NCBI RefSeq assembly: GCF_030814135.1
Contig: NZ_JAUSUQ010000017.1
Coordinates: 1 to 57,429, forward strand
From: Caldalkalibacillus uzonensis
GTDB lineage: Bacteria > Bacillota > Bacilli > Caldalkalibacillales > Caldalkalibacillaceae
DNA length: 57,429 nt
Direction: 5' to 3'
Shown here: piece after piece, positions 54,852-57,193 of the stretch
Position numbering within the stretch: the first letter of the stretch is position 1
Layout of the letters: every line of letters begins with the position of its first letter
Notes under the pieces: generated by a model
The model's input: only the letters and a program-made list of their open reading frames with translations
Told to the model about the DNA's origin: nothing
The model's database searches: none
Made by a program: the position numbers and the translations under genes

Positions 54852-54880
54852 AAAACCCCCCTCTCGTGATGAGAGGAGGG
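54852..54880 (-). terminator. Terminator of the selenoprotein gene
   Basis: CCCTCCTCTC - ATCAC - GAGAGGGGGG (one mismatch) followed by TTTTC on the minus strand. Confidence 0.8.
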
Positions 54881-54921
54881 TGAACCTCATAGGTTGGGTT
54901 GTTTGGGCCTATTCAGTCGGC

Positions 54922-55719
54922 TTAGTAAGTGGGAAACTCCTTATCATGGATATGGCCGGGCTCCTGTTTCAGCGTCAGTTGTTCCAACGCTGCTTTGATC
55001 ACAGCTTTTTGCGTTTCGGCATCATCCGGTTTACCCAAAGAGTGGCCAAATTTAAAGCCGACCGGATGAATCGCCCGGGGCGGACGCATTAATCCGGATT
55101 GTTCCTTATCTAAGGTGACCAGAACCGTTGGAATGCCTGACATTTCAATCGCACGTTGTACCGCAACCACGGTACGATGGCAAAGCGGTCATCCAGCGGT
55201 TAGCAAAACGGCATCCGCTTTGGAGCGGGTAATTTCCTTAGCCACTTGCGGCACGGTTTCATCCAAAATTTGCTTTAAGCGCATGGCATAGCCCATCATG
55301 GAAATATGCTTGTTGTTCACATCACCGATAAAACCTTCTTCTTTTAGTTCACGCAAGCGGTCCAAAGGAAAGATGACATTAATATCCTTCTTCGGTTCAT
55401 CGGTGTTGTAATGCTCTTTCGGCGCCCCATGGGTAACTGTAAATTGGGACGTATCGGCATCACCGGAAATTAAACGATAGGTGTGGTCACCGTCTGTGTT
55501 AAACGGCTCTTGGTCTTTCAAATGAGCACCCGCTGTGGAAACAATAGCAATGGTCATCTCACTCAGTTCTTTTTCATTGGGCGTGTAAGGAATCGCCTTG
55601 CGGGACATATCCATCAGTGCAACACCTCCATCAATTTTTGGCATACCCCTTCTCATCAATCTAATTGATTGAACGGCCATTATGTATCCAGGGGTTGTAC
55701 CCTCATTATACAATATCAT
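54922..55719 (-). CDS. GrdB-like reductase family selenoprotein (in-frame UGA as selenocysteine)
   Basis: Two adjacent frames, 55189-55719 and 54922-55188, are in phase and separated only by TGA at 55189-55191. Read as selenocysteine the junction is LLTAG-U-PLCHRTVVAVQ, a UxxC redox motif as in the selenoprotein B family of glycine/sarcosine/betaine/proline reductases. Continuing sequence (EMSGIPTVLVTL, GLMRPPRAIHPVGFKFGHSLG) is typical of that family's C-terminus. The protein would be 265 aa, Sec177. A SECIS-like hairpin follows the UGA. The start is uncertain: ATG 55719, or TTG 55713 behind AAGGGA. GrdB itself is longer; this short group has no proven reaction. Confidence 0.82.
55158..55175 (-). 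promoter_or_regulatory. Bacterial SECIS-like hairpin
   Basis: Thirteen bases after the UGA, GTACCG (55175-55170) and CGGTAC (55163-55158) form a perfect 6-bp stem with the six-base loop TGGTTG. A G in the first two loop positions and a distance near 19 bases from UGA to loop agree with the bacterial SECIS model. Confidence 0.72.
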
Positions 55720-55801
55720 CTTCCCTTTTAGTCTTTATTATTAAACTTGCTTTGTTTCGCAGTTAAAAAGCTTTGAAAAATTTACCATCCAATTGTGAAG
55801 G

Positions 55802-56002
55802 CTAAGCCTTTAATAAATACACTCTTGCTTCATACGGCCGAAGTTCAATCTGTGTGATCTCTTCTTGGTCTTGAACGGGATAATTGCTGATTAATAGATC
55901 CTTTAAGGCTGCTTCGACATTAATGGACGTGTAATTCGGGTTGACGGCAACCCATGGCGTGCCAGTGGTAAACCCTGCATGAGGTTCCACGGACTGATAC
56001 AT
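55802..56002 (-). pseudogene. Remnant of a GH13 alpha-glucosidase (oligo-1,6-glucosidase)
   Basis: The 66-codon frame joins two parts of oligo-1,6-glucosidase: GFTTGTPWVAVNPNYTSINVE, a segment after the catalytic domain, and LLISNYPVQDQEEITQIELR with PYEARVYLL, the extreme C-terminus. In the intact enzyme about 100 residues lie between them. Everything N-terminal of the first part is missing as well; homology stops near 55978, where an unrelated gene begins on the other strand. A deletion remnant with no function. Confidence 0.75.
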
Positions 56003-57193
56003 GTGGCCCGTGAAAGTGCCGGAATGGGCACTCGTTTTTTATTGGGGCCCCTTTCTAAAACAGGGAATGAACATCCCCGTTTTGAACAGTTGGTCCAGTG
56101 GTACCGGCACAATGTTGAAGTGCGGGATGTCCGTGGGGCAGAACGAGTGTTGCTGACAGCCATTGAGAGCGGTGCAACAACCGAAGCGTTAAATGAGATG
56201 ATGATGACGGCCATCACCGATCATTTCTATATGAATACAGGCCACACGCTCGATTTCCATAATAAGGCTTTCGAAATCCTGGAGCATATTGGCGATGAAC
56301 ACCGGCCATATGTGTTAACTTCATTGTTGCCCGAATTGGCCAATGCCCCCCGAAGTGAAGAGTTGCACAGTTGGCAAGCACCGGTCGACCTGGTACAACC
56401 GCTTCACGAGGTCTTTGAAAAGCTGCCTGATCTCTTGCACCGTCAGCCCTCTCCGGCACAGCTCTCGGTCGGTAATGAAACCATTGTTCAGCAGCTGCTC
56501 AGCGACAACCCTCTAGAAACAGACAACCTGCTCCTCCAAGTGTTAAAAGAAGGGATGACACCCGTTCGTCTGGCCCAAATCGTCACTTTAGCCGCCGCTG
56601 AACGCATCGCACGTTTTCATGTTCAAAATGATATGTGGGATTGGATCACCGTTCTGCACACCTTTACCCATGCCCATGCCGTCCATGAAGCATTAAAACG
56701 ATCCGCTTCACCCGAATTGACCCGGTCGATTTTCCATACGGCGATGAGTATATACTTGGATCGCTTTTTAAACATACCGGCCGCCCGCCGGCCCAATGGG
56801 GATCCCCATGCTGTTGATCCCAATCAGCCTGAGGCTTTATTGGCATTGCTCAATCAACAACAGCAAACGGACCAAGCCGGAAAATGGGTGATGAACTATT
56901 TGGCTGCGGGTGGAGATAAAGCCGCTTTGTTCAACACTTTAGGGCATGCCTTATTGCGTGAAGATGCTGAGTTTCATTCGTTCCAGATGTATGAGGCTGC
57001 GGTGAAAGAATATGAGGAGTGGGCCAAAGAAAAAACAGCGTTTGCTCACTATACCCAGGAAACCTTGATTTTGGCTGTGACCCGTTATCTGGCCGCCCAT
57101 GCTCCAACCCATCGTGAAACCACCCATACCGCCCATATTGCCATGCGTTTACAACGCGGTGACAATTTGTTTAAGGATGATTCCGCCGTCTAG
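55979..57193 (+). pseudogene. Unrecognised helical protein, probably 5'-truncated
   Basis: A 404-codon frame of good coding character, rich in helices, with repeated His/Asp-containing segments (AVTDHFY-like AITDHFYMNTGHTLDFHNKA; FHVQNDMWDWITVLHTFTHA). No ribosome site precedes ATG 55979 or ATG 56024, and the frame opens exactly at the breakpoint with the alpha-glucosidase remnant, so the N-terminus seems lost. I do not recognise the family with confidence; HVARESAG near the start looks like the middle of a longer protein. A terminator shared with 5S rRNA follows. Confidence 0.55.

Follow-up and report, generated by a model that had tools for sequence, protein, structure and literature searches.

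A PrdB-like candidate selenoprotein of Caldalkalibacillus uzonensis and its possible role beside a selenocysteine-containing peroxiredoxin

The window considered here, a stretch of 57,429 nucleotides of Caldalkalibacillus uzonensis analysed as a whole, contains on its minus strand a short PrdB-like gene interrupted by an in-frame TGA. The locus raises two questions. One is whether the TGA is read as selenocysteine (Sec), the other is what the protein does.

The in-frame UGA and the candidate SECIS hairpin

One minus-strand frame (55719-54922) contains a single TGA, codon 55191-55189. This is exactly what the earlier note had described: two in-phase frames separated by one TGA and joined through GUPLCHRT with a UxxC motif. 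Decoding of the TGA as Sec yields ...LLTAGUPLCHRTVV.... The extent of the gene, on the other hand, needs revision. The homology of close relatives begins at approximately residue 30-36 of this frame, and GGAGGTG occurs 8 bases before ATG 55614. Thus the gene probably starts at 55614 rather than at 55719 (Table 1).

Table 1. Coordinates of features in the window
Feature	Position	Strand	Comment
PrdB-like selenoprotein gene (subfamily A), candidate	54922-55614	minus	230 codons, Sec142, probable start; stop TAA at 54922-54924
UGA codon, Sec, first residue of the UxxC motif	55189-55191	minus	TGA in 27/27 subfamily-A loci
Cys of UxxC (Cys145)	55180-55182	minus	only Cys of the protein counted from M55614
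Ribosome binding site GGAGGTG, candidate	55623-55629	minus	8 bases 5' of ATG 55614
SECIS-type hairpin	55158-55175	minus	stem of 7 bp with U-G as 7th pair in the window; loop GGUU; start 13 bases 3' of the UGA
Terminator-like hairpin 3' of the gene	54855-54881	minus	terminator prediction
Alpha-amylase-type gene remnant	55802-56002	minus	Pfam Alpha-amylase, 23.2 bits over 31 residues

The host genome from which the window comes (3.88 Mb, 53 contigs) contains SelA (506 bits), SelB (380 bits), SelD (420 bits) and tRNA-Sec (73.9 bits with the Rfam model; also identified by ARAGORN, with anticodon TCA), and the earlier supposition that the host makes Sec is borne out. The selD gene itself has one in-frame TGA (L017, G000:C9:182097-183026). 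The earlier note considered the Sec trait unusual for a Bacillus with a mostly aerobic gene set. It is not rare in the class, probably Bacilli, to which the sampled genomes belong: a hand count at 429 bits or more, leaving out weaker SelA-like matches, gives 85 genomes with SelA among the 398.

The window protein has matches in 31 of the 398 genomes. All but one of these 31 are among the 85 genomes with SelA; only G128 gave no match to SelA, and its copy carries Cys at the Sec site, the replacement expected of a species lacking the machinery. The earlier note had also considered the case that all homologues end at the UGA. In fact, 41 of the 44 matching places in the 398 genomes have a TGA inside the match, and the other three are two copies with Cys (G001:C22 and G128) and a short fragment that ends before the site (G347). 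Among the more distant relatives, three (L034, L039, L058) have Cys at this site. Reading of the UGA as Trp is ruled out by the Cys in three relatives and the tRNA-Sec in the genome.

A relative with 93% identity comes from G001, a genome of the same genus. In the comparison of the window with G001, dN is 0.029 and dS 1.96 before the UGA, and the corresponding values after the UGA are 0.059 and 1.61. Selection is thus seen to extend beyond the UGA, and the frame is indeed kept on both sides, as had been claimed.

Bacterial SECIS hairpins carry a G in the loop, and the loop in the window fits. The stem previously reported to start 13 bases after the UGA is in place, with the sequence GUACCG-UGGUUG-CGGUAC. 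Single-sequence folding of this hairpin is unremarkable (z = -0.48; 60 of 200 shuffles are as good), and no Rfam model matches the region up to E 10. Covariation was assessed by aligning the window with 24 of its relatives, giving 23 distinct rows. The alignment leaves out two acidobacterial rows of the subfamily, which have an additional codon between stem and UGA, and all remoter relatives, which have different hairpins. In the 7-bp stem, 98.8% of the alignment cells are paired, with far lower values in slid controls (9.9-64.6%). Compared to shuffles, which ignore kinship, both the number of stem cells changed on both sides (17 vs 5.7 +/- 2.2) and the covariation score (0.310 vs 0.151) are high, neither being reached in 500 shuffles. 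By two further measures the stem is unremarkable: it has 2 pairs changed on both sides, a number reached in 380 of 500 shuffles, and 5 further pair types, reached in 464 of 500. One covarying pair connects the third base of an Arg codon with that of a Val codon (C-G, U-A, A-U), and the other does the same for two Thr codons (C-G, U-A). Since both pairs join synonymous codon positions, selection at the protein level does not explain the covariation. Judging from the aligned rows, the hairpin is kept as a stem by paired synonymous changes.

The UGA, the hairpin, the complete sel machinery and the selection past the UGA taken together, the window gene almost certainly encodes a true selenoprotein in which the UGA is read through as Sec. 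Decay of at least one neighbouring gene would suit the opposite reading, with the UGA being a stop codon and the downstream frame a relic: the alpha-amylase-type gene is a remnant in the window and is longer in G001, where the orthologous selenoprotein gene is adjoined by a 563-codon frame and contig L068 aligns piecewise with the remnant. However, this reading is refuted on sequence grounds by the selection beyond the UGA, the covarying stem, the full sel machinery and the occurrence of the UGA at all 27 loci of the subfamily that were examined.

Relation to GrdB, PrdB and D-proline reductase

Assignment of the protein to the GrdB family, proposed in the earlier note, holds at the Pfam level (GRDB, PF07355, 36.7 bits with a cut-off of 22), and the C-terminal part around UxxC is homologous to that of the GrdB/GrdF/GrdH selenoprotein B family (PF07355, TIGR01918). 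However, the window protein is approximately half as long as the latter and scores 47.4 bits with TIGR01918, below the cut-off of 65.45. Its nearer relative is PrdB. The corresponding model, TIGR04483, is the closest one in NCBIfam, with 178.8 bits along 212 residues, and it also recognizes each of the 36 aligned relatives at E <= 0.001. The length, the UxxC motif with UGA and the alignment over most of the protein are common to PrdB and the window protein.

One reading is PrdB of D-proline reductase, TIGR04483 being the nearest curated model. Nevertheless, the score is below the cut-off of 300, and the host yields no match to the PrdA model, weak ones included. The class-wide run of the PrdA search, which served as a positive control, yields matches in seven of the 398 genomes, over the cut-off only in G008 and G128. 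The five weak matches stand beside long GrdB frames; two of these genomes (G068 and G169) also hold members of the subfamily of the window protein, named subfamily A here. No PrdA match over the cut-off occurs in any of the 16 genomes sampled that have subfamily A. Finally, the relatives adjoined by PrdA (L054 in G008, L058 in G128, and L034) form a clade of their own with support 100/99, apart from subfamily A. Thus, by its sequence, the window protein is a member of a PrdB-like subfamily and not a proline reductase: unlike for PrdB, no PrdA partner was found, and its subfamily forms a separate clade and is tied to a Sec-containing peroxiredoxin. That it acts as PrdB of D-proline reductase is extremely improbable and close to refuted.

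In the 27 subfamily-A loci only the UxxC motif is conserved (UxxxC in two acidobacterial rows). L039, the Cys copy in G001 (46% identity), is placed within clade A at the end of a long branch; subfamily A as labelled therefore needs two changes on the tree, whose bootstrap had not settled. A separate observation concerns G008, where a PrdA-like stretch (L087, 8893-10002) follows an intact prdA-prdB pair; the match crosses one TAG and three TAA codons, and the stretch could be either a duplicate that has broken down or a separate, related gene.

Selenoproteins named PrdB have been reported before. The consulted parts of two studies of marine metagenomes describe "proline reductase PrdB" selenoproteins with Sec in UxxC (PMC1088965, PMC2398784), and in Table 2 of the latter, with 235 sequences, they are among the most abundant selenoprotein families. 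The window protein shares with them the name and the Sec in UxxC. The neighbour pairs given in the consulted part of PMC2398784 are Prx/SelW, Prx/Prx-like 2 and Prx-like 1/AhpD-like. No peroxiredoxin/PrdB-like pair was found in the parts consulted of the literature searched, including PMC2398784, PMC13188914, PMC5029168, PMC9312934, PMC1794560, PMC1088965 and PMC10298544, a scope that excluded supplements and most subscription papers. The family is known; the literature searched mentions neither a split from proline reductase nor a link to a Sec-containing peroxiredoxin.

Linkage to a Sec-containing peroxiredoxin and a possible role

In 20 of the 27 subfamily-A loci, a gene encoding a Sec-containing peroxiredoxin (Sec-Prx) is located upstream on the same strand. 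The linked loci include Neobacillus, Calidifontibacillus, Alicyclobacillus, one Symbiobacteriaceae MAG and two Acidobacteriota MAGs. The gap between the matches is 20-197 bases in 18 loci and 297 bases in one. At the twentieth locus (L063, in G032), counted both as subfamily A and as linked, the PrdB-like copy is shortened or frame-broken (107 codons) and Sec-Prx is whole, which counts against a functional pair. In the acidobacterial locus L032, the order of genes on the same strand is: Fur-type regulator, Cys-peroxiredoxin, Sec-Prx, PrdB-like gene, redoxin. The seven unlinked loci are the window copy, which has no Sec-Prx neighbour, its G001 orthologue, the second copies in both genomes, and three loci that belong to a single other family; Sec-Prx is encoded elsewhere in all five of these genomes. 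At the threshold of E <= 1e-35, Sec-Prx is present in 28 of the 398 sampled genomes, among them all 16 with subfamily A. The hypergeometric probability of this co-occurrence, not corrected for kinship, is 2e-21, or 4e-10 if only the 85 SelA genomes are counted. The remaining 12 Sec-Prx genomes lack subfamily A (three of them, G004, G037 and G094, do have remoter relatives), and thus Sec-Prx can work without the PrdB-like protein, again an argument against the pair.

Sec-Prx has the AhpC/TSA fold (PF00578, 130 bits) with the UGA at the peroxidatic place (TPVU). It shares the Sec and the fold with the known peroxiredoxin PrxU (NF040737). However, it differs from the latter, as its score of 82 bits is far below the cut-off of 270. 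All 38 Sec-Prx loci have the UGA at one and the same position, and no Cys is conserved. Fourteen rows, including that of the host, have no Cys at all (L031-L033 among them lack part of the N-terminus), 21 carry one at 47 residues beyond the Sec, and three have Cys only elsewhere. Since a second Cys is not conserved, Sec-Prx needs an outside reductant, at least where such a residue is absent. The Cys 47 residues after the Sec could act as a resolving residue, and this counts against the PrdB-like protein as the reductant.

Who might be the reductant? Eighteen further Sec-Prx loci were considered, five from genomes with subfamily A and 13 from the 12 genomes without it. In six of the latter genomes (seven loci, L105-L111), Sec-Prx is adjoined on the same strand by a gene for a glutaredoxin-TrxR fusion, consisting by Pfam domains of a glutaredoxin and a pyridine-nucleotide disulfide reductase. 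In a seventh, it is adjoined by a lone glutaredoxin (L112). The fusion was not observed at any of the subfamily-A loci examined; in two subfamily-A operons (G178, G023) a glutaredoxin gene directly precedes Sec-Prx. As other genomes have the fusion beside Sec-Prx, the PrdB-like protein seems to occupy the slot of the reductant, and this is the main argument for the proposed electron transfer between the two selenoproteins.

The host has a second PrdB-like selenoprotein gene (G000:C9:116508-117209; L037, L082), 68% identical to the window copy and with a hairpin of its own. PerR-box-like sites were sought in 200 bases upstream of the genes (44 usable regions, 200 mononucleotide shuffles of each), the consensus being TTATAATNATTATAA, taken from the consulted part of PMC3953959. 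Such sites precede the second copies in the host (one mismatch) and in G001 (no mismatches) and the host Sec-Prx (one mismatch), with no shuffle as good out of 200 in each case. Sites with two mismatches were found at L069 (0 of 200 shuffles) and L075 (4 of 200). Only these five of the 44 regions reach the level of at most 4 of 200 shuffles, with about one expected; the other 39 do not. In the 200 bases upstream of the window gene there is no PerR-box-like site (four mismatches, 82 of 200 shuffles). A Fur-type gene lies beside the second host copy on the opposite strand; its best model is PerR (118.4 bits, under the cut-off of 180).

The structure model of the window protein (mean pLDDT 94.4) has a predicted Rossmann-like alpha/beta arrangement with Sec142 just before helix 143-158. 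A sequence search for a solved relative gave none (best E 0.88), and the matches listed by VIA-align include only common Rossmann-like arrangements (Z up to 8.4) with no clear relative. The single Foldseek match under E 0.001 (6.3e-4, TM 0.37) was not trusted as a relative. The matches listed give the modelled protein no thioredoxin fold, the fold of the usual reductants of peroxiredoxins, and this may also count against the role of reductant.

The PrdB-like subfamily probably works in peroxide defence. The more specific suggestion that the UxxC protein directly passes electrons to the one-Sec peroxiredoxin is, in our opinion, the best single mechanism, at about even odds; against it, neighbours can share a regulon without physical contact. 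In the proposed scheme, Sec-Prx would reduce peroxide, its Sec turning into selenenic acid. The UxxC pair of the PrdB-like protein would then turn Sec-Prx over, with the Sec attacking and the Cys closing a Se-S bond, and this bond would be reduced by a donor of the thioredoxin or glutaredoxin type. The window copy would be an unlinked single-gene paralogue, the second host copy being the one with the PerR-box-like site. The complete picture is an all-selenium peroxide-reducing pair, in which a one-Sec peroxiredoxin is turned over by a repurposed PrdB of non-thioredoxin fold, under peroxide control at least in the genus of the window, and with a range from Bacilli to Acidobacteriota. We propose it only tentatively.

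Rather unlikely, in comparison, is that the protein is a selenoenzyme of the peroxide regulon with a substrate of its own, which would stand beside Sec-Prx without reducing it and would instead act, by PrdB-like carbon-selenium chemistry, on products of peroxide damage (oxidised amines, amino acids or thiol adducts), either cleaving them reductively or repairing them. This would agree with the kinship to PrdB and GrdB, whose Sec acts on a carbon substrate according to the consulted part of PMC10298544, with the predicted Rossmann-like fold and the Sec at the start of a helix, and with the 12 of 28 genomes where Sec-Prx occurs without the subfamily. However, the known carbon-cleaving relatives work together with a subunit of the pyruvoyl type, and the PrdA model finds none in the host; moreover, the alternative neighbours of Sec-Prx are disulfide reductants, as if the position were a reductant slot. 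Still less probable, and a poor candidate overall, is a protein for delivery or storage of reduced selenium, which would track the Sec trait rather than peroxide. SelA is indeed present in all 16 sampled genomes with subfamily A, but only these 16 of the 85 SelA genomes have the subfamily, and all of them are among the 28 with Sec-Prx.

If the all-selenium pair exists, it could account for the many "proline reductase" selenoproteins in metagenomes of the marine surface, a setting in which one would not expect an anaerobic enzyme. If a branch of the selenoproteins named PrdB consists of peroxiredoxin partners, these annotations are misleading. The orphan PrdB-like branch would gain a testable function, and the use of Sec in Bacilli would have a reason, namely peroxide defence by two selenols in series.

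Flanking sequences

Three terminator-like sites are predicted in the region, two of them being the stem downstream of the gene, with 1.3 expected from shuffles. The terminator-like hairpin and the absence of close neighbours on the same strand suggest that the window gene is a single-gene transcript. The leader sequences GTATAAT...GTACAACCCCT...ATACAT upstream of the gene are alike in the window (55672-55728) and in G001 (L068, 3831-3887), and this shared stretch may be a promoter or a leader of its own. Between the selenoprotein gene and the window end there is a 404-residue frame on the plus strand (55979-57193), for which searches of Pfam and NCBIfam gave no match at E 0.001. The sequence at the window end looks like 5S rRNA.
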